This document shows positions 39,060 to 58,486 of a stretch of 64,000 nt of DNA, piece by piece (positions within the stretch are counted from its first letter, which is position 1; each line of letters starts with the position of its first letter). Origin of the DNA: Chlamydoabsidia padenii. Taxonomy: Eukaryota > Mucoromycota > Mucoromycetes > Mucorales > Cunninghamellaceae. Location: the NCBI GenBank assembly GCA_025330725.1, contig JAIWND010000056.1, positions 43,693-107,692 of the forward strand. Direction: 5' to 3'. Under the pieces are notes generated by a model. It saw only the letters and a program-made list of their open reading frames with translations, had not been told where the DNA came from and did no database searches. The position numbers and the translations under genes were made by a program.

Positions 39060-39344
39060 GGAGGAGTTACAGGTAACAAAGAAATCATCGAGTATATAGA
39101 AAAAGTATATCCTCTTATAATACCTACGGAGTGTTACAAGTGCTTTTAGTTTGTCTTATTCTTTTCTATCTACCATGGACTGTAATAACTTTCTGGACCA
39201 ACTTGTCCTAGATGTTTTCCACAGTCCATGGTAGATAGAAAAGAATAAGACAAACTAAAAGCACTTGTAACACTCCGTAGGTATTATAAGAGGATATACT
39301 TTTTCTATATACTCGATGATTTCTTTGTTACCTGTAACTCCTCC
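39060..39344. repeat. Element I left palindromic end module
   Basis: 285 bp. The arms 39060-39180 and about 39225-39344 are near-perfect reverse complements, with a 40-50 base loop. The outer bases are GGAGGAGTTACAGG and the complement. Confidence 0.92.
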
Positions 39345-39384
39345 TTATTAGAGTCGATGATTTTTTAAAACAATCGATAGACCA

Positions 39385-40755: not shown

Positions 40756-41060
40756 GGTATATATAATATTTAGTTACCTTGAACATAGGTGAGTGACTCC
40801 ATTCAAACCGCTAACATCTTCAATGTCAGCCAAGAATTTGGCATACTCTCGGTGCCTTTCGGCGACGGTAGACTCGTATCGCCTAGAGTCAACTCGGCGT
40901 CACGCAATTGGATTGCATGAATGGCATATACTGTACTGTAGTAAAACATAGAGTAGTACAGTAAAAAACATACTGTAATATAACATACATAACATAAGGC
41001 ACGTAGTAGGGCATAAATCATAGGTTGCATACGGTACTGTAATGTTACCGAACATTAGCA

Positions 41061-41816
41061 TTATTGCTTATTAGATGTAACATACTTCTGGAGCCTGACT
41101 TTACGATCCTCGATTTCCTCCGGGATCTTGCTGATATCTTCAGCAGTATACTTATACGAGTTTTCCATGGCCGAGTAATCATTGACAAGGTAATGGAACA
41201 GATCGTCAAACATACTGTACTTAATCTTCTTCTTTCTCTTGATATAATCCAATACCTTGTCACACTTCTCGAAGACCTCCGTATGGGCCTCAAATACTCC
41301 GGGCGACCCATTCGACTCCTTGACGTAGCACCAAGAGGCCAGCAAAGACTTGATAGATTGTACGACTTCACTGGAGTACACATCAGGTGTATAGTCGCAG
41401 TCCACAACGGTAATCTCACGAGAGCGTTTGGCCTTCTTTGCCTTCTTATGCTTGCGATGCTCACGTTGCTTTTTCTTGTGTCTTTTTTCTGGAACTCGAG
41501 GCGCAACCTCAGCCTCAGATTCAGATGCCAATGCATCATCCTCGAGTTCCGACATTTCATCGCTAGATGCCACATGTGGTTCATCCTCGATGACAGGAGG
41601 CCCATGCTGGAAACAAAACTTGCATCCAGCTGGTGCCTTGCGACTGCAAGCAGTGCCACGGGCAGTGGTGCCACGGCACATGTTGCCTACTTTGCGCACC
41701 TTTTTGGTAATGCTCTTCGTGATCGACTGCTCGACCAAGGGATCTACAACCAACAACTTGTGCTTGGCAAGCTTCTCAAACACAGTCTTAATAACAAGTT
41801 CAACATTCATCATCAT
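41061..41816 (-). CDS. Cys/His-cluster basic protein (251 aa), element I second gene
   Basis: First ATG at 41816 (MMMNVELVIK). Residues about 46-70 form a compact C-x8-C-x8-C-x2-C-x3-H cluster (CRGTTARGTACSRK...CKFCFQH), like the small zinc-binding modules with CxGTTxxGxxC seen in viral and mobile-element proteins. It is followed by an acidic stretch, a Lys/Arg/His-rich block (KRHKKKQREHRKHKKAKKAKRS, probable nuclear/DNA-binding) and a helical C terminus ending TSNKQ. It lies 306 bp upstream of the transposase, same strand. Function unknown; a DNA-binding partner for the palindromic ends is the simplest idea. The counterpart in element II shares only the cluster and general plan. Confidence 0.7.
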   Translation of the reverse strand: MMMNVELVIKTVFEKLAKHKLLVVDPLVEQSITKSITKKVRKVGNMCRGTTARGTACSRKAPAGCKFCFQHGPPVIEDEPHVASSDEMSELEDDALASESEAEVAPRVPEKRHKKKQREHRKHKKAKKAKRSREITVVDCDYTPDVYSSEVVQSIKSLLASWCYVKESNGSPGVFEAHTEVFEKCDKVLDYIKRKKKIKYSMFDDLFHYLVNDYSAMENSYKYTAEDISKIPEEIEDRKVRLQKYVTSNKQ

Positions 41817-41993
41817 CTTAATGTGCAAATTTTCGTACGTGTATTAACCAGTACAAAAAAATTGGATCAAAAAAATCATTTTTGTATTTTTTCCCTCGAA
41901 GCGAAATTGGCATTTACTCACGGTCTATCATGAGTGTTTTGACCTTGATTTTTTTTGCCATAAATCTCACCGACTGGTTACAAATGTTATCAA

Positions 41994-42276
41994 GGAGGAT
42001 GATTAGCAGAAGTATAATATAAAACATATTTTTAAAACATAAACCTTCCATAAGAAAGGTATCATTCAGATAACCGTGGTGAGGTAGAGCCACTGAAAAA
42101 GATCTGGATGTCTAAACTCGGTCAACGTAAACGGCGACGTCCGAAATGTTGGTCCCATACATCCAGATCTTTTTCAGTGGCTCTACCTCACCACGGTTAT
42201 CTGAATGATACCTTTCTTATGGAAGGTTTATGTTTTAAAAATATGTTTTATATTATACTTCTGCTAATCATCCTCC
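41994..42276. repeat. Element I right palindromic end module
   Basis: 283 bp. Arms from GGAGGATGATTAGCAG to the complement AATCATCCTCC, with a loop around 42115-42148 (TCTAAACTCGGTCAACGTAAACGGCG region). The sequence is unrelated to the left module apart from the termini, yet almost identical in length. The loop shares GACGTCCGAAATGTTGGTCCC with element II's right loop (ACGTCCGAAATGTTAGTCCC). Confidence 0.92.
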
Positions 42277-42360
42277 ATTATAGCTGGGGACGTACCGTTC
42301 AATGAAACCGTACTTAATTTCGTCATTGTTGATTGAGTATTTAGAAGAAGAAAAAAGAGG
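42277..42360 (-). pseudogene. 5' piece of the interrupted MULE gene
   Basis: Open frame SKYSINNDEIKYGFIERYVPSYN leads up to the ATT duplication of element I and continues in frame on the other side (39056). No ATG was identified upstream before the pogo remnant. Confidence 0.5.
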
Positions 42361-42445
42361 AGAAGTAAAAAGTTAGGGAAGTGAAGTGAAAGGGGGGAAC
42401 AAAAAAACAAAAAATTGAATCATTATTTCAGCGTGTGACTTTCAC

Positions 42446-42999
42446 TTATTTCGCGGATTTATCCTCTTCGGGATATTCACTTAGCTGGGTTTGAATTTCC
42501 TTGACTCGTGATTGCATGGTCTCGTCATTCAGTCTAGGGGCGCTACCTGATTCACCATGAGCAGTGGATACCTTGAGTCCGTGCCTTCCCATAAAGCCAT
42601 AAATCCAACCAAGAGAAAAATCATGCGGCGGAGTTAATTTTTGTTTCTTGCATAAATCTTTTGCCTGATCGATCAGAAATTGATAATTGATGGCAATGTT
42701 ATCATTTTGACAAGCCAATACATGAGCATAAAGATGCTCCTCTACCATTTTTGTTGTGGCATCCACTGTGCGAGGTCGCTTTGAGTCCTTTTGGGTGGCT
42801 GGACGATTTTCCACATCATGGCGTCTTTTCAGCATAGTAGCAATGCTTGGTTGAGAAATGACATGGTCCAAATTCAACTCTTTGGCAAACCAGATACCTA
42901 GATCCTTTTGCGTCATGCTTTTACATTCATCATTTTTTTGTAAAGCTTCAGTAGTTGTTCGTTGGTGGGGCGAAAACGTTTGGCAGGAGTTTGAGACAT
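42446..42999 (-). pseudogene. Pogo/CENP-B-type transposase N-terminal half with a 1-base frameshift
   Basis: The ATG at 42999 (MSQTPAKRFRPTNEQ) leads to a helix-turn-helix start, then a run of seven A (about 42930) where one base is missing relative to the continuing frame (MTQKDLGIWFAKELN). The second DNA-binding part follows: VEEHLYAHVLACQ, INYQFLIDQAKDLC, FSLGWIYGFMGRHGLK (CENPB-type HTH). It stops (TAA 42446) after SEYPEED, exactly where the DDE domain of pogo/Tigger transposases would begin. It is therefore a DNA-binding-only remnant, or, if the A-run is a sequencing slip, a domesticated DNA-binding protein. Confidence 0.6.
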
Positions 43000-43199
43000 T
43001 GTTTTTTATTAGTGAATTAAAAGAAGGGACAATGTTTTTCTAATCAAATAACAGTAGCATATAACTATAAAAAGGAAGGTTCCAGAAGTCGGGGCAAGAG
43101 CAGTCTGTATTCAAACCCAGAATAACGATATTTATGACAATAGTGATACAAATTGCCGTTCCCGTTGATATTATTATTCTCATAACCTACTGTATGTAC

Positions 43200-44453
43200 G
43201 TATTGGTGAAAGTACAGCGATGGAATGCTTGAAGAGGTTCTGTTGTGCTGTTGACGCAATTTACAGAAAGAAGTATTTGAGGCGTCCAACTCAAGAAGAC
43301 GTTGATAGATTGCTGATCGAGGGAAAGGAAAGGGGGTTTCCTGGAATGTTTGGTTCTCTGGACTGTATGCATTGGACATGGAAGAACTGTCTAGCTGCTT
43401 GGAAAGGGCAGTTCCAGGGCAGAGGGAAAGAAGCAACTGTTGTACTAGAAGCTGTGGTTTCTAAAGACTTGTGGGTCTGGCATGTCGTATCCGGCATTGT
43501 TTATTTTTTATTTTTGAAGAGATGATCGACATATGTCAAGACCCTGACAGTCGATCAATCACGTTTTTATTTTTTTTTTATGATCGGGATTCAAATATCC
43601 AGATCAGTTTTTTTGATTTTGGAATTGTAATTTATTTTGTGAACATTAGAAAGAGACCAGCCAACCAGGATTCGTATATCGAAAGAAATGAAGCTGTGTC
43701 ATCATTAATCTTTTTTCTTTTTTAACAAGTGTGTTGGTAATCTGATTTTTCTTTTTTCTTTACTCTTATTTTTATAATAAAAGGTTACTTTCAAACTCGT
43801 ATTCCATATACTACTGATTTATCACACCAACACCACATGGCATGCCTTTTTTGGTGTTCCTGGTGCTCTGAATGACCGTACTGTCCTGGACCGGTCTCAT
43901 CTTCTCAGTGAAGCCGCGGAAGGCACCAGCCCTATAGTTGACTTTCGTGTCAACAACAATCAGTACACTCAGGGTTACTACCTCACTGACGGCATCTATC
44001 CCACATACGCGACCTTTGTCAAATCACTGAAGGACCCACGATCCAACAAACAAAGTGTATGTATATATCTCCTGTGAATTTTATGATAGGTATATTAACA
44101 TTTCTTGTGATGAATAGCTATTTGCAGCAAAACAAGAAGCAGTTAGGAAGGATGTGGAGCGTGCGTTTGGTGTTTTGCAAGGCCGCTTTGCAATCATCAA
44201 GCAAGGTGCACGAGTGTGGAAACTGGAAGACATGCATAAAATTATGTATGCATGTGTCATTCTCCACAACATGATAGTAGAAGGTGAACGAGAAACTGGG
44301 GATTTTGAAAAGGTGGCATTTGATACTTCGTTGACTCAACAAAACGGAGGCACCTTCGACAATTACCTCCGCCGATACCGTGAAATCAGGGACAGCAACC
44401 AGCATGTGCAATTGCGAGATGATTTGATAGAGCATATATGGAATTTATATTGA
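43200..44453 (+). pseudogene. PIF/Harbinger transposase split by a solo LTR
   Basis: VRIGESTAMECLKRFC begins the recognisable part. GMFGSLDCMHWTWKNC carries the first catalytic Asp, then LEAVVSKDLWVWH is cut by LTR-D3 and resumes AFFGVPGALND without loss of frame. YYLTDGIYPTYATF has the second Asp, and after a short intron (44055-44116) ARKDVERAFGVLQGRFAI has the Glu. It ends YLRRYREI...LIEHIWNLY, TGA at 44451. Apart from the LTR it looks intact from residue 1 of the recognisable part. The upstream frame closes at a TGA near 43160, so the N terminus is uncertain. It pairs with the minus-strand SANT gene at 44470-45625, the standard two-gene layout of Harbinger elements. Confidence 0.8.
43483..43837 (+). 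repeat. Solo LTR, family D, copy 3 (internally deleted)
   Basis: 355 bp, flanked by an exact TGGCA duplication (43478-43482, 43838-43842). Compared with D1/D2 it lacks about 45 bp after position 25 (the TTGATTGATTACATAAAG region). It is inserted in the Harbinger transposase between the W and H codons. Confidence 0.92.
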
Positions 44454-44469
44454 GACGAATAAAAATAAT

Positions 44470-45625
44470 TTATTGATCTTCATTAGATCTGTTTTTTCTT
44501 ATGCGCATCGCTATTTCTTTTTTTTGTTCATTGATGAACTCAAGCACATCTGGATCTTCAATGGATGACATATCTGTCATCACGAGCTGGATATCCTGCC
44601 CCCTCTGCACCAGATCGTTTGCTTTTTTGGACGACTCTTCAATAGCATGGAGCCGTTCCAAAAACTGGGCGTCATGGCGCTCTTCAGCTGTATGCCGTTC
44701 CTTGATGATTTTGACAAGTTCAGCTGTTGAGCGCTTTTCCTGCATGGCCGTCTTTGCCCTCTTGCGTCCAGTTGGGCGCGCTTCACCATTATCTTCTTCT
44801 CTTCTTTCTTCCTCCTCTTCTTCACTGCACTCTTCAACCACGCGGCGGCGAGCAGGCTTGGGGCAACGGGCTTCACTGGTTTGGTGGTGAAAGTCTTCCA
44901 CTTTTGCTCGTTCCGCAAGATATTCCAGCAATGCGTCAAGCGAAAGGGCTTGCCCGTAGGAGATGATCCAAGTTTATACAAGGAAGTTTAACCCTGGTAA
45001 CCATACCAAGAACAGAAAGTCAACAGCAACTAAGTATATTACCAGAATTTACGCTTGATGTCACATCCAGAAAGTTGTGTTCATCCAAAAAGTATACCCT
45101 CCTAATTTTTAAAAACAAGGGCGATTACTGGGATGTGACCAGGGTTAAACTTCCTTGGTATAAACTTGGATCACCTCCGTAACCGTCTCAAACATCTCGT
45201 ACGTCTGCTCGAGCTATATATATGTGTATATATGTATTAAAAAAAACTAGCCTGTTTAAAACTGAATACACACTGAAATATTACTTACCATCCTTTCGTA
45301 GTTACTTCCGCTTTGGTTCCGGTCTTCCACCTGCTTGAAGAAGGAGCAGAACTTGGTGACCTGTGGATGGATTGTAATCCACCTTTGGGCAAGGCCTGTC
45401 GGGAATGGTGGAAGGATCCTAGACCTTCTTCACAATCTCCTGTCTGAAATCCCGGAGAATGCATTTCCACATATTGTCTCGTGATTGGTCAGTACCAATG
45501 ATAGAATCCACGGACATCTTGACCCAAGAAAGACAAAGTTGCTTGTCTTCTTGGTGGCTCCAGTTCGGGTTTTTGGACCGAGACAATTCCTCAATGACTG
45601 GAGTGGGGAGATTAGGGGTGGGCAT
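44470..45625 (-). pseudogene. Harbinger-associated SANT/Myb-like gene, broken by a palindromic element and a frameshift
   Basis: The start at 45625 gives MPTPNLPTPV and a SANT-like domain (NWSHQEDKQLCLSWVKMSVD, GTDQSRDNMWKCI), the typical DNA-binding partner of Harbinger transposases. It continues, after a frame change near 45420, with WITIHPQVTKFCSFFKQVEDRNQ and, after an intron, LEQTYEMFETVT. The 220-bp foldback element at 44959-45178 sits here; beyond it GKPFRLTHCWNILRNEQKW follows directly. One more frame change precedes the acidic/basic tail (RPTGRKRAKTAMQEKRS, AELVKIIKERH), ending at 44470. Tail-to-tail with the transposase, 16 bp between stops. Confidence 0.72.
44959..45178. mobile_element. 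220-bp foldback element of the GGAGG-ended family
   Basis: Termini GGAGATGATCC and GGATCACCTCC (complementary with one mismatch), long imperfect inverted repeat, exact 3-bp duplication GTA (44956-44958 and 45179-45181). Removing it plus one GTA restores the SANT gene reading frame. Termini and duplication length match the end modules of the two-gene elements, so it looks like a non-autonomous relative. A second, partial copy is at 52905-53123. Confidence 0.85.
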
Positions 45626-45668
45626 CAAGAGAAATGGTCTGTTAATTTTTTAATGAAAATTGTGTTTG

Positions 45669-46546
45669 TGTCGTATCAGGCATTACTACCCAACTGTGAA
45701 ATTAGCTTTGTCGTATCAGGCAAAATCAATAAAAGAACGTTAAAACTCAGCTGTCAAAATTTAAATTTAGCCGAGAATGATCGGAAAAAAGATAACGGCG
45801 ACCAATTCAACAACAGACAAAGCATTGTCTCAGAACCTGATCCCGTTATAAAGCCCAATGAAATCAACTCCACTAAACAAAAGAAATAAAACCAGTCTTG
45901 TCAACTTCCCCTTATTGGCTCAACTCAACAAAAAGACAAGGTTTAGAAATTTTTAGATTTTCTATAAATAGTAGCTTTTGTATTGACCTTTATTGGTTTT
46001 TCTTCCTCATTCGATTTTAAAATAAAGATATACAAGGATCTCACTTTACTCTTGCTGTCTTTATTGTCGAATTCCACAAGCTTCTATGAAACTTGACGAC
46101 TAGGAATAAAGAATCTGACCCTCAAATAAAGTCTCACATACTTAAGGTAGCATGAGTAATGATGATTTAACTTCCGCTCCCAGAAAAAAAAGGAGTCAGG
46201 AGACATTTCAAGGTACGATCGCGTTTAGTAATCGATGATATGAAACCAAACCTATTAAATACTACTTCTTCTTTTCTTCTTCACAATTAAGATCTTTGGT
46301 ACAATCTTTTACCAATTAAAAAGTTTTCCTTCAACGAAGAGGAACAGCAGTCAGATCTATGGGATCTATGCATCTTTCCATTGGTGCCGTGTTAGCCAGT
46401 TAGAAATTTATCAACGCCTATATAAGCAGCAGTAGTTTGTCTCCTCTATTATGTTCATCACTTTTTTCATTATTCATTCTTTAAACAACATAAAAATAAA
46501 GGGTAATAACAGTTCTCGTTTATTTTTGTGTTCTTCCCTACCCTAT
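45669..46546 (+). repeat. LTR family B, copy 2 (carries nested LTR-C1 and element II)
   Basis: Begins TGTCGTATCAGGCATT. It is interrupted after 40 bp by LTR-C1 (45709-46078, duplication AGCTT) and again near its 3' end by element II. Its last bases (ATACTTCA) resume at 49924-49931, immediately after element II and its TAT duplication. Confidence 0.82.
45709..46078 (+). repeat. Solo LTR, family C, copy 1
   Basis: 370 bp, TGTCGTATCAGGCAAAA to GTCGAATTCCACA, flanked by AGCTT on both sides (45704-45708, 46079-46083). The uninterrupted LTR-B1 at 32.5-33.0 kb shows the empty site, with only one AGCTT. A TATA-like CTATAAATAG occurs near 45961. Confidence 0.93.
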
Positions 46547-46831
46547 GGAGGTATCATAGATGACTATTATATTATCAGGAGCATATATATATATAAAGAT
46601 ATTATAGAGTAAGATATGGTTCTTAAAAGGTAGATACTCATGTTGCATCTTCCCACTCGACGGAGACCCAGAAAAGTACTTGGACATGTTCATCCAAAAG
46701 GTTCCCCGCAATCTCCGTCGAGTGGGAAGATGCAACATGAGTATCTACCTTTTAAGAACCATATCTTACTCTATAATATCTTTATATATATATATGCTCC
46801 TGATAATATAATAGTCATCTATGATACCTCC
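46547..46831. repeat. Element II left palindromic end module
   Basis: 285 bp. Arms carry a (TA)n stretch and GATGCAACATGAG, closing on a loop around 46672-46712. A closely similar palindrome ends the truncated copy at 50840-51126. Confidence 0.93.
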
Positions 46832-47075
46832 TAACATGACCCTGATGAGATAATAGTCACCCACAGTACCTCCGCAGGGACCAGTCTTCATCATGGCGGT
46901 TCCAGATTCCCCGCGTAAGGTCAGATCTTATATACTATACTATACTTTATGCATAAGATATAAGTAACATACATATACAGAAGATGTAACGTAATGTATA
47001 ACAAACTAGCCCTACGCGGGGATCCGATAATGCCACAGTACAGTATGTTCTTTCACGTATGCTTTTAAAAAGGAA

Positions 47076-48461
47076 TCACGATCTGTGCTCCTCCCAGTAC
47101 TTCTCTACCAACTCGTCAGCATCAAGATCTGAGGCACGAACCCAGGAGCTCTCTGACCTTGGGTATCCCTTCCACTTGACATGATACTTTCTATGCCTCG
47201 ATGAACCTTTGTGACCTAAGATACGTTCTACCTCATATGTACCATCACTAGCTTCATCAACCATATCATCCTCGTCAACTGGATTGTCTACAACGCTCAT
47301 ACCAAGGAACTGCTCTTGGAGCCTCTGTAGACTGTTGGCATCCTCTATCTTTTTCTCGATGTTAACCGTTACTTCTACCGATGAACCAAGAGCAGTAATA
47401 CCACCAAAGTCGAAACCTGTCTGTTCCCACAAGGAGTGATGGGGCCTCAATGGCATGTTCAACATATGTACAAAGTCCTTGATGTTGAGAAGTAGACACG
47501 CCAGCTGGAACTGTACTACAAAAGTATCGATGTTGTTCACCCGGATTGGGCTACCGTTGCCAAACTTACAGAAGGTAGACACTAACTCACCAAACTTGGC
47601 CTCTATACTAGAGCGGAAACTACCAAACATCTCGTTGTACAATGCCTCGGAGCTGGTGAGTGAGATCCCAGCGGACTTCCTAATCGGGCAGCAAAAGTTC
47701 TTGTCAGATAAGGCGGGAGCATCATGGAGTAACTGGCTGATGAACTGGGTGTAACCGCCATCGAGAGCAATACAGTCTACAGCATGAATCTTTCGTTCGA
47801 TGTCCATTTGTAAGAACATAGTACCATCGTTATAATCACGGCATGGGAAAGAATCAGATACAAATAGGATCATGTTGTTGATGTCCATACATACTTGAGT
47901 TCTGAAACCAGATTTCTTGAACTTGTACGAGTACATAGTGGCACTACTTTCCCCACGGTACGAAGCACGGGTGTCGTGCCCATCAAGCATAAGAGTTACA
48001 TGGCGAAACTCGGTAGGATTCTTTTGCATGGCACTCAGGATCCTGATCTTCACGTTGGAGAACATAGAGGACAACATTTTTCTCATCATCCTAGATAGCT
48101 CTGAACTACGCTTCTCGTAAAACTCTTTATGTAGCTGATGAAAGCTACTCTTGGGGATGAACTGTTCCATGTCAGCCATAGAACACCCGGTCAACAAGTG
48201 GTAGAGAAGCAGTAAACCCTTCTCCACATTACGGTATGGACCGCTGTAGTCTTGGGTGCCAAACAAGACCACTAGAAAGAAAAACACAGGGATCACACCA
48301 AGGCGTTGAAGCACCTTTTCCTTTACCATACCAATGGATTGTATCTCTTTAAGAGTGGTACGATGGTACTTGGACTTTGTTATCGTCGGCCATTCGCTGT
48401 CGATGAATGACCATTGTTTATTTATTAGTTCTTGAAATTGGATGGCAAGATCGTTGTTCAT
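47076..48461 (-). CDS. DDE transposase with C-terminal chromodomain (461 aa), element II
   Basis: Single intact exon, roughly four-fifths identical by eye to the element I protein, with the same DDE contexts (LMLDGHDTR, CIALDGGY, FRSSIEAKFG) and the same hydrophobic stretch VIPVFFFLVVLFG. The linker before the chromodomain (NPVDEDDMVDEASD) differs. The chromodomain is YEVERILGHKG...KYHVKWKGYPRSESSWV. Because the surrounding LTR and palindromes are intact, this copy may be functional. Confidence 0.85.
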   Translation of the reverse strand: MNNDLAIQFQELINKQWSFIDSEWPTITKSKYHRTTLKEIQSIGMVKEKVLQRLGVIPVFFFLVVLFGTQDYSGPYRNVEKGLLLLYHLLTGCSMADMEQFIPKSSFHQLHKEFYEKRSSELSRMMRKMLSSMFSNVKIRILSAMQKNPTEFRHVTLMLDGHDTRASYRGESSATMYSYKFKKSGFRTQVCMDINNMILFVSDSFPCRDYNDGTMFLQMDIERKIHAVDCIALDGGYTQFISQLLHDAPALSDKNFCCPIRKSAGISLTSSEALYNEMFGSFRSSIEAKFGELVSTFCKFGNGSPIRVNNIDTFVVQFQLACLLLNIKDFVHMLNMPLRPHHSLWEQTGFDFGGITALGSSVEVTVNIEKKIEDANSLQRLQEQFLGMSVVDNPVDEDDMVDEASDGTYEVERILGHKGSSRHRKYHVKWKGYPRSESSWVRASDLDADELVEKYWEEHRS

Positions 48462-48733
48462 GTTAAATCAGATAGAAATGTAGTAGACGTAGTATAGGGT
48501 ACTGTGCCATGAGCGATATCGTTAATAGTATAAAGTTTCACTAGCAGAAAGATAAATGCCTGAATGGCAGACTCTTGGTACCTTTCGGCACGAAAAAGAT
48601 CATCGGAGATAGAGCCAGGTGATGATCAACTATAGGCTAGTCATAAGATATAGAGCATATGCATAAATTAGCATAACGGCATAAGGATTCATGGCATACA
48701 TAGGTTATAGGGCATATAGTTCTGGTTGGAGTA

Positions 48734-49522
48734 TTAGTGCTTGTTCGAGAATGCCAATAAGCTGGAAATGGTCGACTCGGAGTTATGGGTACTGTAACGC
48801 TCAAATGCTGCTTTCCAGTCCTCGGTGTCTACTGTTCTTACACTGCCTCCAAAGACCTCATTCCACTCGTGTTCCACCGCTTTGGTATATTCCTTGACCT
48901 GCGAAGAATGACATTTCCCTTCTTCTTCCATATCATCTAAAATGGCCTCACCTTGGAAACGTAGTTTATCTACTACCTTCTCTGCTTCCGTTCTTTCTCG
49001 AGGATGCAAACCGGATGCAAACCCACCCATGTACATGGAATGTAGAAGGCTGTCGACATTCCTCCAAAGGGTAATCATCCCGTAGTAACGCCTCTGATAT
49101 TTGCGTTTGGGAAACACCCTAGCCCTCGCCAAAACCTGCTGAGGGAGTAACCCTTGTCTTCCCCCCTTAAATTCGAGACGTTTTTCCTCGACATCTGTTT
49201 CTACTTCCTCTACTTCCTTGACATCCGTTTCTTCCTTACGATGTTTTCTGGTCTTCTTCTTAGACTTGCGTCTAGCAGCATGGGAGACCGTCTTTTCCTT
49301 GGGTACGTGCTGGAAACAGTACCCAGTGTTGTCTTTTGCGCTACGAGAGCACAATGAGCCAGCAACGGTGGTTCCCTTGCAGAGACTGGCTCTATCTCTA
49401 GCATAGGCGATGGCTTTTTCGGTGAGTTCCTCTCTGAACTCCTTATCCATGTCGAGATACTTCGACATCTTCTTCAGCATGTAATCAGCAACAGATGTGG
49501 TTAAAACTTTTAAGTCGACCAT
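48734..49522 (-). CDS. Cys/His-cluster basic protein (262 aa), element II second gene
   Basis: The ATG at 49522 opens a helical N terminus (VADYMLKKMSKYLDMDKEFREEL), then the cluster CKGTTVAGSLCSRSAKDNTGYCFQH (C-x8-C...C-x2-H), a Lys/Arg block (RRKSKKKTRKHRK), an acidic stretch and a long helical C-terminal region ending LLAFSNKH. The relation to the 251-aa protein of element I is by domain order and the CxGTT/CFQH signature; the rest is too different to align by eye. It lies 272 bp upstream of the transposase on the same strand. Confidence 0.7.
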   Translation of the reverse strand: MVDLKVLTTSVADYMLKKMSKYLDMDKEFREELTEKAIAYARDRASLCKGTTVAGSLCSRSAKDNTGYCFQHVPKEKTVSHAARRKSKKKTRKHRKEETDVKEVEEVETDVEEKRLEFKGGRQGLLPQQVLARARVFPKRKYQRRYYGMITLWRNVDSLLHSMYMGGFASGLHPRERTEAEKVVDKLRFQGEAILDDMEEEGKCHSSQVKEYTKAVEHEWNEVFGGSVRTVDTEDWKAAFERYSTHNSESTISSLLAFSNKH

Positions 49523-49635
49523 TGTAAAATTTGTTAATGTATAATAATTGTGTAAATTGTGCAGGTAAATGGGCTACATGCATTGGGCTACGAATGTTCA
49601 CTTTTGTAAATCCAGTATCATCACCTGTCCCAGTA

Positions 49636-49920
49636 GGAGGATGTTTAACAGAAGCATGATAGAAAACATGTTTTTAAAACATAGCCGACCAGTAAGAAAA
49701 GGTGTTGCCCAGGTAACCACGGTGGATGATGACCACCGGAGACGTTTTGGATGATCAGAGACGGTCGACTTGAGCAGTAACGTCCGAAATGTTAGTCCCG
49801 TTCATCCAAAACGTCTCCGGTGGTCATCATCCACCGTGGTTACCTGGGCAACACCTTTTCTTACTGGTCGGCTATGTTTTAAAAACATGTTTTCTATCAT
49901 GCTTCTGTTAAACATCCTCC
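49636..49920. repeat. Element II right palindromic end module
   Basis: 285 bp, arms GGAGGATGTTTAACAGAAGC... and the complement, loop around 49757-49800 containing ACGTCCGAAATGTTAGTCCC, which is shared with element I's right loop. The conserved loop in otherwise different arms suggests a functional site. Confidence 0.92.
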
Positions 49921-49931
49921 TATATACTTCA

Positions 49932-51126
49932 TGTAGACTGTATTGCTCTCGATGGCGGTTACATCCAGTTCATCAGCCAGTTACTCCATGATGCTCCCGC
50001 CTTATCTGACAAGAACTTTTGCTGCCCGATTAGGAAGTCCGCTGGGATCTCACTCACCAGCTCCGAGGCATTGTACAACGAGATGTTTGGTAGTTTCCGC
50101 TCTAGTATAGAGGCCAAGTTTGGTGAGTTAGTGTCTACCTTCTGTAAGTTTGGTAACGGTAGCCCAATCCGGGTGAACAACATCGATACTTTTGTAGTAC
50201 AGTTCCAGCTGGCGTATCTTCTTTTCAACATCAAGGACTTTGTACATATGTTGAACATGCCATTGAGGCCCCATCACTCCTTGTGGTAACAGACAGGTTT
50301 CGACTTTGGTGGTATTACTGCTCTTGGTTCATCGGTAGAAGTAACGGTTAACATCGAGAAAAAGATAGAGGATGCCAACAGTCTACAGAGGCTACAAGAG
50401 CAGTTCCTTGGTATGAGCGTTGTAGACAATCCAGTTGACGAGGATGATATGGTTGATGAAGCTAGTGATGGTACATATGAGGTAGAACGTATCTTAGGTC
50501 ACAAAGGTTCATCGAGGCATAGAAAGTATCATGTCAAGTGGAAGGGATACCCAAGGTCAGAGAGCTCCTGGGTTCGTGCCTCAGATCTTGATGCTGATGA
50601 GCTGGCAGAGAAGTACTGGGAGGAGCACAAATCGTGATTCCTTTTTAAAAGTATACGTGAAAGGACATATCGTACTGTGGCATTATCGGAACCCCGCGTA
50701 GGGCTAGTTTGTTATACATTGCGTTGCATCTACTGTATATGTATGTTACTTATATCTTATGCATAAAGTATAGTATAGTATATAAGATCTGACCTTACGC
50801 GGGGAATCTGGAACCGCCATGATGAACACTGGTCCCTGCGGAGGTGCTGTGGGTGACTATTATATCATCAGGAGCATATATATATATAAAGATATTATGA
50901 GTAAGGTATGGTTCTTAAAAGGTAGATACTCATGTTGCATCTTCCCACTCGACGGAGATTGCGGGAAACCTTTTGGATGAACATGTCCAAGTACTTTTTT
51001 GGGGCTCCGTCGAGTGGGAAGATGCAACATGAGTATCTACCTTTTAAGAACCATACCTTACTCATAATATCTTTATATATATATATATATGCTCCTGATG
51101 ATATAATAGTCATCTATGATACCTCC
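49932..51126 (+). pseudogene. Truncated third GC-rich-type copy of the chromodomain-DDE element
   Basis: Plus-strand remnant beginning inside the transposase (CIALDGGY region) directly after the end of LTR-B2. The frame is nearly identical to element II. It has one in-frame TAA at about 50287 (after HHSLW), and continues through an intact chromodomain to EEHKS (stop about 50635). The terminal palindrome follows (50840-51126). Both the N-terminal half and the second gene are missing. Confidence 0.8.
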
Positions 51127-51777
51127 TTATAAGGTTCGGCACACAACCACCATCGAGTATCACAGATATGGGTTTGCCATTTGAAAATCCTTAAATCCAT
51201 GGTGCAGAAGTTCCAGAAGGCATAGGTTTCACCAATTTCGCAACCTGAGGTTTGTTCTGATAAGGTTTCGTAAGGGCATTCTTCACCTGGGATCGTAATT
51301 GACTGTTGAGAGAGCAGAGTTGAGACAGAGAGACAGTGTATACTGGTTCATTGAGGAGATCCATAAGCTTCAGAGGTTCATCAACGATTGCTGTTCGCCG
51401 AATCAGTTCATCAGCCTTGATTTTCTTGACAGAGTTTTCAGGGACCGTAGTTTGAGTCGGGGTTTATATTTCCATGTCTGTGTCCAACCTTTTATTCGAT
51501 GGTTCCAACTTGTTCATGTCAATTTTAGGAGCCTGGTATTCGTGACGATCGGTTTCTACGCTTGGTCCCGGTGTTGAGTCCATGACAAAGGCATCAGTTT
51601 GTTTCACTGTAATCAACATTGCTGCTTGTTGTGTTTGTTGTTTGGATGCATAATTAGATCGGGCTTTTAAGGCTTTGCTGTCTTGGCACTGGAAGTGGCG
51701 ATGTTCCTTGCTTTGACAAAATTTACACGCTAGAGGGCAGTCAGCTGAGTATTGACCATCTTGTTTGCATTCGTAAC
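51127..51777 (-). pseudogene. Retrotransposon gag-protease remnant
   Basis: The minus strand encodes a CCHC-type knuckle, CKFCQSKEHRHFQC, preceded by a second partial one (YECKQDGQYSADCP). After a degenerate Lys/Pro-rich stretch comes a retropepsin-like active-site segment ISVILDGGCVPNL, in which the usual D-T/S-G reads D-G-G. Multiple stops. It is cut on the right by LTR-E and on the left by the truncated DDE element. Confidence 0.55.
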
Positions 51778-52090
51778 TGTCGTATACGGCAGTAGTTTTA
51801 TTTTTATTTTTATTTTTTATTGAAGTGAGCAATCAAGTCAAGTTTTTATTTTTATTTTTTCAGAAACCATACAAGTATATCCGTATGGTAACACAGTAGT
51901 TGAAGATGATCACATTCGGACTACGAATGTGGGGGCTTAACTGATGGGACAAACACTTATTAGAGATAGATAAACAGTAGCAGACTTTTTTTTCTTCTTC
52001 ACTTGAATAAACAAGCTCATTACGTCTCGTAATCACGTCCCAGACTACATTTTTTTTACGAACTCGACTCTTCACTACAACATCAACAAC
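51778..52090 (+). repeat. LTR family E (3' border uncertain)
   Basis: Begins TGTCGTATACGGCAG, with early T/A-rich sequence similar to LTR-D (ATCAAGTCAAGTTTTTTAT-like). It runs into the leader of the gag ORF at 52097. The 3' end is probably near 52060-52081 (...TCACTACAACA). A recognisable tRNA primer site was not found. Confidence 0.55.
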
Positions 52091-52096
52091 AACACT

Positions 52097-52905
52097 ATGG
52101 ACATTGATGCCGACAATGCGTACGAAGTTGGTCTTGACAAGGCCAAGCGAGTGGTTCAAATGACGTTGGACCGCTACAACGAGATGCAAGACTTGGCGGA
52201 TGAGGCCATTCTCAACAACACGGATGCAGAGGACCAATTGAAATTGGTGGAAAAAGCCAGTCAGTTGTGGCAACTTCACCAAGGCACCAAGAAAACCATG
52301 GCGCAACGTTACCCTTTGGAGGAACACTTCAAGGATGGTAACCGGGGAAACAACTCTGACCCTGGCAATGACTCGTCTGCTGCCCCTGAAAACAAGGCGG
52401 ATGCTACCAAGGCTGTTCCTCACGTTAATGACTTTCCGTTCTTGACCACCAACAAGGAAAAAACCATGCACCTGGAGCACATGGTTACCAAGAACGCTTG
52501 TGAGTTCGTCAAGTCTCTTGAAGAAGTCATGAATCTGCACTGTTTGGATGTCGAAACAGACTACCAACGGTTCTTGCCAAGACTTGTCAGCAAGTCTTAC
52601 AAGGTGTTCTTAGAAAACCAAAGAAGCATCTTGGTGGACCAAGCACAGGAAAACTGGGCTATGGTGAAAGAGTGGTTAGTGGAATTCACCAACACTCCTT
52701 GCCAAAAGGTAAAGAATACAATCGAGTGGTTGGATACAACACCTCGCGATGATGAATCCGGGGAAGATTTTTTCTTTAGGTTGATGGAAGCCACTGGAGC
52801 TGTTGATTGGGGCAAGATTTTCAACTCTACCCTGGCCTTCTTCGCTATTAATCGGAATCTTGACAGCAACTGGCGCCACCGCTTGTTGGAAGCTATAGGA
52901 GGTGA
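52097..52905 (+). pseudogene. LTR-retrotransposon Gag N-terminal part (5' end of element E)
   Basis: Open frame from ATG 52097: coiled-coil-like N terminus (KAKRVVQMTLDRYNEMQDLADEAIL), acidic/polar linker, then a capsid-like helical segment (EKTMHLEHMVTKNACEFVKSLEEV ... FLPRLVSKSYKVFLENQ ... NTIEWLDTTPRDDESGEDFFFRLME). This is the Ty3/gypsy-type Gag layout. At 52905 the coding sequence runs into a foldback element (GGAGGTGATTCAAG...) and stops at 53012. No protease or reverse transcriptase remains. Confidence 0.6.
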
Positions 52906-53185
52906 TTCAAGTTTATACCAAGGAAGTTCAACCCTGGTAGCCATACCAAAAACAGAAAGTCAACAGCAACAAAGTATATTACCAGAATTTACGCTTGATG
53001 TCACATCCCAGTAATTGTCCTTGTTTTTAAAAATTAATACTTTCTGGGTGAACACAACTTTCTGGATGTGACATCAAGCGTAAATTCTGGTAATATACTT
53101 TGTTGCTGTTGACTTTCTGTTCTTGGTATGGGAGGTATTATAGATGACTATTATATCATCAGGAGCATATAGATCTATAATACCT
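52905..53185. mobile_element. Second foldback element with a nested mini-palindrome
   Basis: 52905-53123 is a relative of the 220-bp element at 44959-45178 (GGAGGTGATTCAAG start, same GATGTCACATCC arms), lacking the last arm segment. In its place sits a 57-bp unit beginning GGAGGTATTATAG and ending CTATAATACCTCC (about 53129-53185), which shares GATGACTATTATATCATCAGGAGCATA with the element II left module. Confidence 0.65.
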
Positions 53186-53293
53186 CCATACCTTAGTGTA
53201 GCAAAATAGTAGATTTAGTTTAACTAGTCTGATATCTTGTCTTTGCCTCTTTTTTTTATAAAATATAATAAAGTATGAAGTTGTAAATATACT

Positions 53294-53663
53294 TGTGAAA
53301 TTCGACAATAAAGACAGCAAGAGTAAAGTGAGATCCTTGTATATCTTTATTTCAAAATCGAATGAGGAAGAAAAACCAATAAAGGTCAATACAAGAGCTA
53401 CTATTTATACAAAATCTAAAAATTTCTAAACCTTGTCTTTTTGTTGAGTTGAGCCAATAAGGGGAAGTTGACAAGACTGGTTTTATTTCTTTTGTTTAGT
53501 GGAGTTGATTTCATTGGGCTTTATAACGGGATCAGGTTCTGAGACAATGCTTTGTCTGTTGTTGAATTGGTCGCCGTTATCTTTTTTCCGATCATTCTCG
53601 GCTAAATTTAATTTTTGACAGCTGAGTTTTAACGTTCTTTTATTGATTTTGCCTGATACGACA
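53294..53663 (-). repeat. Solo LTR, family C, copy 2
   Basis: 370 bp on the minus strand, same length as copy 1, flanked by an exact duplication ATACT (53289-53293, 53664-53668). Confidence 0.92.
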
Positions 53664-53694
53664 ATACTAAACGTGTCACCCTATCGTTTGCTTA

Positions 53695-54466
53695 ATGGCG
53701 ACACTCGCCGACTCATGTTGGAAGGCTTATATCTCTTCTCGCGAAAAAATTTTCATCGTACCTTTTTCCACTGAACCTCTCTTTCTCTCTTTTTCTATCC
53801 ACAATGAACAACAACACTATCTACACCCCGAAACTATTCGCAACGCTCTTGTGTCTTCCATCATTCCAACAGTTATGCGACCTCATCAGGAGTTACACGT
53901 CGAGTTTGCGACTTGGCAAAAAAAGTCTCGAAAAATTGAGCACCTTCTGCTCCACCAAATGGAACACCAGGCGAACCAATGGCAGTGGTACACATATTCT
54001 TTTTAGCAGAACATTTTTTTGCCATAGAGAAGGTCATATGAATCAGTCCGCGAAGTTCGTCTTACTCAAAAAGACACTAAAAAGGTCGGCTGCACTGCCA
54101 AGCTTCGGGTTAAGCAAAGCGTATGTTCACCAGATGTGATGAAGTTCAAGTTCATCAATAATCACATTCACCATATTCCTGGATCGTTTTCGAACATTCG
54201 CACCTTGCCTCTGGATCCGGAAAGCGTCCAACTTCTTTCAAGTCGTCTGGAAAATGGTGGTCAATGTGGGGATATCACTTTGAGTGTATTCAAGCAACTT
54301 GAATTGTGGATCTCAACGCACAAAGGCTATCGAAAAGTACATTATAATGACGTTTATAATAGAATGCAAAAGGTATTTAGGTCTATGAAAATGCATCACG
54401 CAAAAACAGAAGGAATCAAACAATTTCCATTTTTGGAATTCCGAGGTCGTCTCAGTAATATGCTAA
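53695..54466 (+). pseudogene. MULE transposase, 5' part (interrupted by element III)
   Basis: ATGGCGACACTC at 53695 or the ATG at 53804 open an N-terminal zinc-binding region (HREGH...; a one-base loss follows). The next frame reads TQKDTKKVGCTAKLRVK then NNHIHHIPGSFSNIRTLPL, typical of SWIM-type MULEs, and VYNRMQKVFRSM. The gene is cut by element III at 54467 inside what looks like an intron (TGCTAAT branch-point-like sequence at the junction). Confidence 0.6.
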
Positions 54467-54701
54467 GAGGACCGGTCAGAATTAATTGATATTTTGGTGG
54501 AATAGATGGATAATTTTTACATCCTTGTAATATAAAATAGTCGGCCTGATCATCTAATTATATGTATATGCTTTCACTTTATCAGAAGATAACCTACGTG
54601 ATCAGGAAAGAAAGCCTAAGCCTAAATATTAGACATTGTTCTTTTATCCAATATGGAATTGGTGGATACTATTGTTTTTATATTGGATATGACCGATCCT
54701 C
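54467..54701 (+). repeat. Element III end module, left copy
   Basis: 235 bp, identical to 57359-57593 as far as read. Contains a hairpin-capable TATCCAATATGGAATTGG ... TATATTGGATA segment near its right edge, and a GATCATC/CGTGATCAGG pair, possible replication- or nicking-type structures. Confidence 0.93.
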
Positions 54702-54753
54702 TGTTTTTGTTGAATATTATTTGTTGTTGCCTACAGGGGCTCTTAACTGATAT

Positions 54754-55662
54754 TTAAGACCAGTTGATTTTTCTACTAACTTTATTTTCTGCATCTCTAT
54801 CTGCCCAAGAGAAATTTGAGTCTATTCTTTCTTTTATTTTTTCCAAATTTCTTCCAAATGCGATACTAGGATCATAAGCAATAATATCTTTCATAGACCA
54901 TTCCCCAGTATAATATTTGTACCATAGTTCCTTAGGTTTCAATTTCCCATAAACATCTCTATGTATATTAAATCCCCAACTGATGCAATTTTTATCGGTT
55001 TTTAGCATATAACTATAAACATTTTCTTTTGTTTGTTTTTTGATTGTTTTTATATTGGTAATAATATTACCATATCTCGAAAATTCTTCCGGTAGATTTA
55101 GGTAATCCTTATTTTTTATATCTTTTTTTGCTGTCCATTCGATATATAAGTGAAGATGTTTATTGGTATTGTGCCGTATTTCTTTATGTTCTTCTTGAGC
55201 AACAGCTATTTTACATAAATTAAAGTTATTTTTGTAGTATTCCATGATTACAGCTTTAGGGGTCTCATTATAATCAATAGTCAGGAACATTTTTTTAGCT
55301 GTCCATCTTTTTTTTATATTAGGACAATCATTACATTTACATCCTGAATCATCACATTTAACTTTATTATTGCTTTCTCTTATATTTAATTCCTTTTTTA
55401 TAGTATCTTCTATTTTCTTGTAAGCTTCTTTTTTTTCATCTTTCAAACCTTGTGACCATGTACAAGACTTCATGGTGCTATAAAATAGTTTTGTAAGTTC
55501 TGTAAATTTGGATAATAATAAACTATCATCAATAGGTTCTATTTTTTCTAAGGGAATAGGTTCATCCTTCTTATCGTAAAAATTATAGTTATTAGTATCT
55601 TTCGGGTAACAGTCAGGACATTCACCCATAGGCTCTCCACAAATACAAAATTTAGCCGTCAT
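54754..55662 (-). CDS. Rep-like HUH endonuclease (302 aa) of CRESS-DNA type, no helicase domain
   Basis: The ATG at 55662 opens an N-terminal Cys-rich tip (CICGEPMGECPDC) and a second Cys cluster (CDDSGCKCNDC, residues 102-112). The HUH core follows: motif I FLTID (about 125-129), motif II HLHLYIEW (168-175, the two metal-binding His), motif III YSYMLK (215-220, Tyr217 and Lys220 as YxxK), then ISWGF, matching the order and spacing of circovirus/geminivirus-like Rep proteins. The usual C-terminal superfamily-3 helicase is absent; the frame ends after about 80 further residues. It would be predicted to nick single-stranded DNA and join to it through the Tyr. It is divergently transcribed from the transposase, 125 bp apart. 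Confidence 0.78.
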   Translation of the reverse strand: MTAKFCICGEPMGECPDCYPKDTNNYNFYDKKDEPIPLEKIEPIDDSLLLSKFTELTKLFYSTMKSCTWSQGLKDEKKEAYKKIEDTIKKELNIRESNNKVKCDDSGCKCNDCPNIKKRWTAKKMFLTIDYNETPKAVIMEYYKNNFNLCKIAVAQEEHKEIRHNTNKHLHLYIEWTAKKDIKNKDYLNLPEEFSRYGNIITNIKTIKKQTKENVYSYMLKTDKNCISWGFNIHRDVYGKLKPKELWYKYYTGEWSMKDIIAYDPSIAFGRNLEKIKERIDSNFSWADRDAENKVSRKINWS

Positions 55663-55787
55663 TTTTAGTTATTTTGGTAGCTTTTTATTTTGAATAAAAA
55701 TTCAATTTTTCATATAAAAGTATGCATGCCAAGAGAATTGTGTTGCATAAAAAGTAAAAAAAAAAATGAATTTTATTATAAATAAAA
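55663..55787. promoter_or_regulatory. Bidirectional promoter region of element III
   Basis: 125 bp between the two divergent starts. It is A/T-rich, with TATAAAAGT near 55712 on the plus strand and TTTTATTATAAATAAAA just before the plus-strand ATG. Divergent genes around a short spacer are typical of small Rep-encoding replicons. Confidence 0.45.
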
Positions 55788-57191
55788 ATGAATCTTCAGA
55801 ATCTTCATAAAGAAGAAATTGATAAATTAGTAAACCAAGAGTGGTCTTTTTTATACGATGCTTATCCAGTACTGGAAAGAGAATACAAACATAGAACAGA
55901 ATTAAAGGAATTAAAAGTAAACTATATTATTAGTAAAATTAAGGATGAATTGTTAGATAAATTGGGTTATATTGCGGTCTTCTATTTTATACAACTGTTC
56001 TTTAGTATTGGAGATTATAAAAATCCTTATAAAAACATAGACAAGATATTATTAGTACTATATCAAATTATTAGTGGAAAATCTATGAAAGATATGAATG
56101 AATATATACCATATGCATCATTCTATGATATTCAATCTAAGTTCTGGGATGAGGAAAAAGAAAAAATTAGTAATGAAGTTAACAAGAAACTAGAGAGTAT
56201 GTTTTCTAATATAAAATTAAGAATTTTGTCCTCTAAGATTTATAATCCTTTGAAATTTAAAGGAGTAACCTTGTTTCTTGACGGTCATGATAGTAGAATA
56301 AACTACGAAAATTTATTAATTGACAAATTTGATTTGTATTCATACAAATTTGAAGGTACTGGGGTTAGGACACAATTTTGTACTGATATCAATGGATTTA
56401 TATTGTACGTATCATCTTCAAAATACTGTAAAAATAATGTTGATGGTGATATGTTTCTTAAAATGAAATTAGAAAGAAAAATAAGTGAAGCTGATTGTCT
56501 TGCTTTTGATGGAGGGTATTATTATTATATTGAAAGATTTATAGAAAATAGTGCTAAAATTGGTGTAGATATAAACAGATCTAACTTTTTATGTCCATTT
56601 AGAAAAGATAAAAATGTTGATTTAACTATAGAACAGAAAGAATACAATGAAACTTTTGGTAGCTTTCGTTCAACTATTGAGACTGTTTTTGCTGATATTG
56701 GTAATAAATTCAAAATGTTTAGTAATAATAAAAAGATAACCAAGGTTACAAACGTTATCAATTATAATTTAAAATTTAGGACCTGTTGTTTATTATATAA
56801 CATTAAGAAGTTTACAGATAAGTATAACATAGTTCCTGATGAGTTGCATAAACAGTGGTATAACGACGATTTTGATATAAAATATAAGGATGAAATAGAT
56901 GACAGTGTATCTACTCAATATATAAACAACATGTATATTGCTGATGTTATTAACAAACACAATGATATTATTGAGATGCAAGATAGACTTTTAAACCTCG
57001 ATTTGATTGCTAATGATGAAACAGCATACGAGGTCGAGAAAATTATAAGACACGAGAAAAATCAAAATGGTAATATTAAATATTTTGTTAAATGGAAAGA
57101 TTACAATATCTTTTATAATAGCTGGGTTTATGAAGAAGATTTTAATCAAACTGATATAATAGTGGAATATTGGAATAAACAGATGGAATAA
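55788..57191 (+). CDS. DDE transposase with C-terminal chromodomain (467 aa), element III
   Basis: Single intact exon. DDE positions: Asp165 in TLFLDGHDSR, Asp241 in CLAFDGGY, Glu298 in FRSTIETVFADIG. The same N-terminal plan as elements I/II is kept (NQEWSFLYDAYP versus NKQWSFIDSEWP, then the hydrophobic VFYFIQLFFS). The chromodomain spans about 413-466 (YEVEKIIRHEK...IKYFVKWKDYNIFYNSWV). Codon use is far more A/T-rich than elements I and II, and overall identity is perhaps a third by eye, so this is an old, separate branch that probably arrived independently. Confidence 0.85.
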   Translation: MNLQNLHKEEIDKLVNQEWSFLYDAYPVLEREYKHRTELKELKVNYIISKIKDELLDKLGYIAVFYFIQLFFSIGDYKNPYKNIDKILLVLYQIISGKSMKDMNEYIPYASFYDIQSKFWDEEKEKISNEVNKKLESMFSNIKLRILSSKIYNPLKFKGVTLFLDGHDSRINYENLLIDKFDLYSYKFEGTGVRTQFCTDINGFILYVSSSKYCKNNVDGDMFLKMKLERKISEADCLAFDGGYYYYIERFIENSAKIGVDINRSNFLCPFRKDKNVDLTIEQKEYNETFGSFRSTIETVFADIGNKFKMFSNNKKITKVTNVINYNLKFRTCCLLYNIKKFTDKYNIVPDELHKQWYNDDFDIKYKDEIDDSVSTQYINNMYIADVINKHNDIIEMQDRLLNLDLIANDETAYEVEKIIRHEKNQNGNIKYFVKWKDYNIFYNSWVYEEDFNQTDIIVEYWNKQME

Positions 57192-57358
57192 ATTCGGAAA
57201 ATCAAAATATACAAAAGCGTGCCAACATGCCAAGAGCTTTAGCTCTAGTATTTTGTAGTTTCTCGCGTGTTAAAAGATTCATTGAACTTACTTCAATTAC
57301 ATCTTTGCGGCGTGGAAACTATTTTTTTTATATGAATTATTCTGTATTTTATTTTACA

Positions 57359-57593
57359 GAGGACCGGTCAGAATTAATTGATATTTTGGTGGAATAGATG
57401 GATAATTTTTACATCCTTGTAATATAAAATAGTCGGCCTGATCATCTAATTATATGTATATGCTTTCACTTTATCAGAAGATAACCTACGTGATCAGGAA
57501 AGAAAGCCTAAGCCTAAATATTAGACATTGTTCTTTTATCCAATATGGAATTGGTGGATACTATTGTTTTTATATTGGATATGACCGATCCTC
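57359..57593 (+). repeat. Element III end module, right copy
   Basis: Direct repeat of 54467-54701, followed by the TAA duplication. The lack of visible difference between the copies suggests recent insertion or copying from one template. Confidence 0.93.
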
Positions 57594-57596
57594 TAA

Positions 57597-58315: not shown

Positions 58316-58486
58316 GGGACGAAGTTATTTCATGCCGAATTTTTTTTTGTTTTCATGAAATTTGACACCCGCCATCAGTCACTTCCGACGAGATTCATTT
58401 ACCGCTCAATTTTTTTTTTCAAATCCAGTTGGTGGCCTTACCGACTTTACCGAAAAAAAAAATTCGGCATGAAATAAGTTCGTCCC
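58316..58486. mobile_element. 171-bp MITE with GGGACGAA termini
   Basis: Terminal inverted repeats of about 33 bp (GGGACGAAGTTATTTCATGC... and the complement ending TTCGTCCC) with one mismatch, closing on about 100 bp of unrelated sequence. Flanks ATTTGA and ATTTAA are only an approximate duplication. It joins truncated LTR-B3 to truncated LTR-A2. Confidence 0.6.

Follow-up and report, generated by a model that had tools for sequence, protein, structure and literature searches.

KolobokP transposons of animals consist of an internal region between long terminal direct repeats that carry their own short inverted ends; as far as the passages on them describe, a Kolobok transposase is combined with a His-Me finger nuclease on the opposite strand, and the repeats measure ∼450 or 660 bp (Kojima and Bao, 2022; PMC9587614). 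In the same passages, solo repeats are flanked by target duplications, multimers are common, and a one-repeat circle is discussed by the authors. The geminivirus-like transposon of Tuber melanosporum is described as decayed, with interrupted or truncated Rep-like and transposase frames, 37 bp inverted ends and, in the passages devoted to it, no obvious target duplication (Liu et al., 2011; PMC3198968). For Teratorn, a 180 kb element derived from a herpesvirus, sections of a review propose a rolling-circle concatemer from which one unit, flanked by two transposon copies, is integrated (PMC10175614). Here we describe a 3,127 bp element from the fungus Chlamydoabsidia padenii, found in a 64,000-nucleotide stretch of contig JAIWND010000056.1 (positions 43,693–107,692; the window). 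A first-pass annotation of the window had proposed that this one small mobile element has genes for a Rep/HUH enzyme as well as for a chromodomain DDE transposase. The proposal was borne out, and the same pair occurs in a second copy of the element in the genome.

Results

Structure and Mobility of the Element

The element, designated A, is built as module-core-module:

54464..54466: left target duplication TAA, with the ends read exactly
54467..57593: whole element, 3,127 bp, supported by a second copy with matching ends and by the empty site of that second copy
54467..54701 (+): left terminal direct module, 235 bp, with its own inverted ends
57359..57593 (+): right terminal direct module, 235 bp, with exactly the sequence of the left module
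57594..57596: right target duplication TAA, with the ends read exactly

The stretch 54467–57593 is a real mobile element. The TAA duplication noted in the first-pass annotation is exact, the triplets at 54464–54466 and 57594–57596 flanking ends at 54467 and 57593. The two modules lie in the same orientation and are 100% identical. Every 235 bp module starts with GAGGACCGGTCA and finishes with TGACCGATCCTC, giving 12 bp inverted ends that are complementary at 11 of 12 positions, and the outer ends of the whole unit are mutually inverted. The core between the modules (2,657 bp) has a G+C content of 26.7%, against 39% for the window, and carries the two intact divergent genes that had been claimed: the 302-residue minus-strand frame and the 467-residue plus-strand frame are both open. 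Complementary triplets open and close the cores, TGT...ACA in A (54702–54704 and 57356–57358) and AGG...CCT in family D, described below (L038). At 58316–58486, adjoining the element, 33 bp inverted arms (97% complementary, 105 bases apart) resemble a small inverted-repeat element.

Evidence of movement was obtained from the source genome, searched as G000 (34.2 Mb, 95 contigs). The second copy, at G000:C83:737-3864, is 99.65% identical to the window copy and has the same ends; it is flanked by a CTT duplication where the window copy has TAA. Joining its flanks at a single CTT yields a continuous frame, and the uninterrupted counterpart of this site is present at C53:589-888 (98% over 300/300 bases). 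No empty counterpart of the window copy's site was found in G000. The frames beside or across the insertions were not named by Pfam, the best values of 0.0065 and 0.045 both falling under the cut-offs. Chance motif matches are ruled out by the second copy, its empty site and 33 related Reps. One element caught by accident within another was also rejected, the identical unit being found at two sites.

The Rep Protein

The minus-strand gene has these features:

54754..55662 (−): Rep gene, 302 residues, predicted HUH nuclease without a helicase, supported by the open frame, Gemini_AL1 and the profile match to solved Reps
54973..55296 (−): HUH catalytic domain, residues 123–230, with E157, H169, H171, Y218 and K221

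As a single sequence, Rep scored 20 bits against Pfam Gemini_AL1, below the cut-off of 24; 11 of the 19 members of its family matched Gemini_AL1 at E 0.01 or better. Profile search of the 302-residue protein against Rep families, proposed earlier as a check, found solved Reps: a 19-member profile matched the Rep domains 7vg8 (7e-7), 1l2m (3e-5) and 6q1m (5e-4), and the matches to solved Reps span about 7e-7 to 1e-3. Motif I and the HxH of motif II line up in these alignments, as do the tyrosine and lysine of motif III in 6q1m. The motifs FLTID, HLHLYIEW and YSYMLK lie where they had been reported and are conserved in relatives across 33 aligned Rep rows (the window protein and 32 of the 33 profile-found proteins, truncated P0018 being excluded). 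Y218 is invariant in all 33 rows, and H169 and H171 are kept in at least 90%; P0097 and P0098 are without the H169/H171 stretch of the alignment. Toward the N-terminal side, zinc-type cysteine clusters were recognized by eye in the alignment. Rep has neither a Walker A pattern nor a Pfam helicase match, so that no superfamily 3 helicase domain was found.

Judged by its motifs and profile matches, the minus-strand gene encodes an HUH Rep of the geminivirus type that lacks a helicase and is for that reason predicted not to be a complete circular Rep-encoding single-stranded DNA (CRESS) replicase. The first-pass annotation had likened the element to a CRESS replicon; of the marks of such replicons, HUH motifs I–III are present, no helicase was found, and the intergenic regions do not contain the nonanucleotide.

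The DDE-Chromodomain Transposase

The plus-strand gene has these features:

55788..57191 (+): DDE transposase with chromodomain, 467 residues, supported by the open frame and Pfam
56331..56801 (+): DDE_Tnp_4 match, residues 182–338 (30.5 bits, cut-off 24.8)
57027..57179 (+): chromodomain, residues 414–464 (34.1 bits, cut-off 25.1); HP1-type chains matched

The catalytic residues D165, D241 and E298 are found at the places previously given for them and are conserved: in 44 aligned rows D165 and D241 are invariant and E298 is kept in at least 90%. The chromodomain, likewise confirmed over its Pfam cut-off, may have a putative role in steering integration toward methylated-histone chromatin. Mucor, Thamnidium and Mortierella-type fungi are the sources of those transposase relatives that are named. 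No Pfam match to a Myb/SANT partner was obtained; the partner protein is Rep.

Candidate Rep Sites

Two places outside the genes were noted:

55725..55735 (+): CATGCCAAGAG, an iteron-like word in the stretch that separates the two genes
57220..57246 (+): two TGCCAA words, the second within CATGCCAAGAG, adjoining a hairpin; candidate Rep site

The hairpin has a 6 bp stem (AGAGCT-TT-AGCTCT). A repeated word of at least 10 bases like CATGCCAAGAG arose in 2 of 2000 shuffles. Two copies of the geminivirus word TAATATTAC are present, each within a gene (55062, plus strand; 57078, minus strand), probably by chance in A+T-rich DNA.

Terminal Modules and Sister Families

Three further families of this transposase type (B, C and D) were dissected in G000, and among the transposase loci of that genome only the two A copies carry Rep. 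Family D comprises three full copies (L038, L039 and L040) with 221 bp direct modules, a transposase as sole gene and a G+C content of 21%. Four solo D modules are also present (L050, L051, L054 and L055), all with perfect 3 bp duplications; two are of the D3 type, and two have just one of the three differences from D1. Families B and C (L036, L037, L035, L041 and L034; in the window, 46547–49920 for B and 39060–42276 for C) end in modules of ∼285 bp that form long imperfect palindromes and differ between the left and right sides. Their second frame encodes a zinc-type protein, identified as DUF5763 in B and by its cysteine pattern, by eye, in C. Of the three B left modules, one is an exact reverse complement of the remaining pair; turned modules were seen in none of three B right modules and none of two C modules on either side. 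Flip/flop (rolling-hairpin) ends are not claimed for B and C, as recombination between the near-perfect arms explains the turned B module.

Exact 3 bp duplications were found at 13 of 14 loci (A 2/2, full D 3/3, solo D 4/4, B 2/3, C 2/2), a count that leaves out the truncated C copy on C61 and partial B copies. PIF/Harbinger duplications are of the TWA type; unlike these, the target triplets of families A–D are not restricted to TWA, 4 of the 13 exact ones being TAA or TTA. Four elements of this transposase type, three of them full and one partial, lie within 19 kb of the window (39060–57593), at 39060–42276, 46547–49920, 49924–51126 (the partial one) and 54467–57593, perhaps marking a preferred chromatin region.

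In each of the five paired-module elements examined (two of A, three of D), the left module is identical to the right. Between copies, the modules differ at 2 of 235 sites in A and at 3 of 221 in D, and each of these five changes is present in both modules. Because the modules are identical within copies yet differ between copies, both modules of one copy seem to derive from a single template, in the manner of long terminal repeats (LTRs), as retrovirus ends do. Retroviral LTRs as such were rejected, because each module is bounded by inverted ends of its own and the core holds no long frames besides Rep and the transposase; reverse transcription is accordingly not indicated.

Rep and DDE Genes in Other Sequences

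Single-sequence searches returned 18 Rep relatives and 65 transposase relatives, and the Rep profile raised the number of Reps to 33. The longest contig is 2730 bases for both Rep P0003 and DDE P0021, and 2652 bases for both Rep P0004 and DDE P0019. These lengths are the only ones common to the 33 Rep and 65 DDE clusters; they belong to the two longest Rep contigs, whose Reps are 56%–64% identical to the window Rep. Because no other cluster pair shares a length and both lengths are near the 2657 bases of the core, each of the two contigs apparently carries both genes. The expectation that Rep would lie beside a DDE gene in other genomes is to this extent supported, apparently on two contigs, by matching lengths.

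In a tree of 47 transposases, the window protein groups with P0019, P0020, P0021 and P0025 (SH-like approximate likelihood ratio test, SH-aLRT, 100). The Rep tree of 31 sequences (the window Rep and 30 others, fragments P0018, P0097 and P0098 being excluded) places the window Rep in a group of eight (SH-aLRT 99), whose seven database members are on contigs of 1509–2730 bases; the remaining 23 Reps are on contigs of 1023–1532 bases (Mann-Whitney p 1e-4 versus the group of the window Rep). Contigs over 2800 bases account for 0 of 33 Rep clusters versus 17 of 65 DDE clusters (Fisher p 5e-4). The short Rep contigs fit assemblies halted at repeated end modules, or free circles. Reps P0008–P0017 and P0084–P0096 are on contigs of 1.0–1.5 kb with no room for a transposase, which may be Rep-only elements, tiny circles or assembly-cut pieces. 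No confirmed locus was obtained with the Rep and DDE profiles in viral contigs or with the Rep profile in genome contigs. Plasmids searched with Rep and phages searched with a related Rep gave no match, and none of the 19 Rep family members matched PHROGs.

Discussion

The reading that we favour, with a probability of roughly 0.55, is that A, a DNA transposon of composite-like build with long terminal direct repeats, passes through a one-module circle, with Rep as the nicking enzyme and the DDE enzyme as the integrase. Within-copy module identity argues for such a circle, consisting of the core plus one module (2,892 nt), as passage through it would leave the two modules of each copy identical. 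Also in favour of this reading are the second copy with its different duplication and its empty site, the four solo D modules with their duplications, the retained active-site residues of Rep, the apparent pairing of Rep and DDE on two other contigs, and KolobokP with its solo and multimer forms. The circle would arise from recombination between modules or from nicking by Rep. In the latter case Rep would nick the module or the TGCCAA/hairpin site at 57220–57246, releasing or amplifying the circle together with a host helicase and polymerase. The DDE enzyme would then integrate a module-core-module unit cut from a dimer or concatemer or, alternatively, carry out replicative strand transfer of the cointegrate type at the ends of the modules. 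Because family D manages without Rep, the role that suits this protein best is that of amplifier or releaser, not that of integrase. The circle with one 235 bp module proposed by the first-pass annotation is therefore backed by module identity and falls short of being proven. More tentative, and in our estimate less than an even chance, is a two-phase element in which the one-module circle is amplified by the HUH Rep and a host helicase and chromodomain-DDE integration then regenerates the second module, the 1.0–1.5 kb Rep units being its satellite or plasmid form.

Several observations weigh against the favoured reading. No solo A module, tandem unit or circle was found in the genome, where the module search gave at least four matches, all of them the modules of the two A copies; the search with the D core gave three matches, each in a full element, and no tandem unit. 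Family D has identical direct modules without Rep, so the signature needs no element-encoded Rep, which suggests that circle formation and DDE integration are possible in elements that lack Rep. The identity of the modules might also stem from gene conversion between them. The TGCCAA hexamer count is weak, having been equalled in 203 of 2000 shuffles, and the geminivirus nonanucleotide is absent from the modules and intergenic regions of the element. The two A copies differ at five coding positions (window 54792, 55332, 55821, 56025 and 56253), two in Rep and three in the transposase; because all five change the amino acid, these copies do not indicate purifying selection, the sign of which comes from distant relatives only. 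Finally, the Rep and DDE trees conflict on P0003/P0021 and P0004/P0019: P0019 pairs with P0021 as its sister, leaving the window transposase outside, while the presumed Reps of these two, P0004 and P0003, do not pair in this way, counter to strict joint descent. Because the trees disagree, Rep genes may have been exchanged between elements.

Plain cut-and-paste transposition would have the DDE enzyme alone move the unit from its outermost inverted ends, with Rep a captured accessory that binds DNA or has an unlinked role; direct-module recombination would produce solo modules and gene conversion the module identity. The 3 bp duplications are compatible with this account, the Rep-less sister families B, C and D are mobile, and the second gene slot varies, holding an unrelated zinc-type protein in B and C (DUF5763 in B). 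However, the complete lack of left/right differences in five of five elements would demand complete conversion every time, and the Rep catalytic residues are kept in relatives, although a mere binding protein would not need them. We regard cut-and-paste alone as possible and somewhat unlikely.

Were A instead an integrated CRESS-type plasmid, a small Rep circle would be primary, the transposase borrowed, and the chromosomal copies side products. The 23 related Reps on contigs of 1023–1532 bases, without room for a transposase, agree with such an origin, as do the confinement of Rep clusters to contigs of no more than 2800 bases (0/33 above, versus 17/65 for DDE) and the A+T-rich element (core G+C 26.7%, window 39%). 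Rep is without a helicase, however; family D is also A+T-rich and has paired modules but no Rep; the short contigs may merely be assemblies broken at repeated modules; and no match was obtained in viral contigs, plasmids or phages. A plasmid origin thus appears improbable. Least probable by far is that one transposon copy acquired Rep as an unrelated insertion. Rep is indeed restricted to the two A copies among the transposase loci of G000, but the pair is present in both copies, at different sites, and apparently on two further contigs, and the Rep-bearing elements have transposases that form a single clade (SH-aLRT 100), so that this reading is largely contradicted.

If the favoured reading is true, an HUH nicking enzyme and a DDE integrase divide labour in one small eukaryotic element. 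The presence of Rep-bearing and Rep-less paired-module families in one genome is a natural experiment on the contribution of Rep, and the paired modules predict a one-module circle of 2,892 nt that can be tested by PCR. In bacteria, inoviruses or integrative and conjugative elements (ICEs) pair an HUH enzyme with a DDE transposase; these belong to unrelated families. No intact element with Rep and a chromodomain DDE transposase was found in a limited literature search, made largely without subscription papers. The first-pass annotation had called the element a candidate for an undescribed system and had held that an element of this size does not normally combine the two chemistries. The latter statement cannot be kept in that form: the passages on the decayed Tuber element provide a precedent for Rep plus transposase (PMC3198968), and composite DDE-plus-nuclease transposons of like architecture are known from those on KolobokP (PMC9587614).

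The window Rep has motifs I–III of the HUH catalytic domain in common with geminivirus-type Reps (7vg8, 1l2m and 6q1m); unlike them, it is without a helicase domain, resides in a chromosomal DDE transposon and has zinc-type cysteine clusters on its N-terminal side. The Tuber melanosporum element likewise combines a Rep-like frame and transposase frames within one fungal element. In contrast to it, the genes of A are intact, the target duplication is 3 bp, and there are direct terminal modules, of which the passages on the Tuber element mention none. With PIF/Harbinger (PHIS) elements, as far as the source portrays them, A shares DDE_Tnp_4 with D, D and E and the 3 bp target duplications (PMC12730594); it differs in the chromodomain, the lack of a Myb/SANT partner and the long direct terminal modules. 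The likeness to Teratorn, as presented in the review sections cited above, is that a replicating element is joined to DDE integration. Should the two-phase reading hold, A would represent, in minimal form, the rolling-circle equivalent of self-replicating transposons, and would form a living CRESS-DDE link.

Closest in build are the KolobokP elements, as their published passages depict them, in which the long terminal direct repeats likewise carry inverted ends of their own and a DDE enzyme is accompanied by an opposite-strand nuclease. A differs from them in having DDE_Tnp_4 with a chromodomain, an HUH Rep and modules of 235 bp (221 bp in D), and in its fungal host. KolobokP multimers are common, whereas none were found here; solo modules with duplications were seen here in D (four), and none was among the four A module matches. 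As far as sequence comparison can tell, the architecture is of the KolobokP type with long terminal direct repeats, here with a different DDE family and an HUH Rep. If true, the terminal-direct-repeat architecture of KolobokP is shared by another transposase family, combined there with a nuclease of a different kind.

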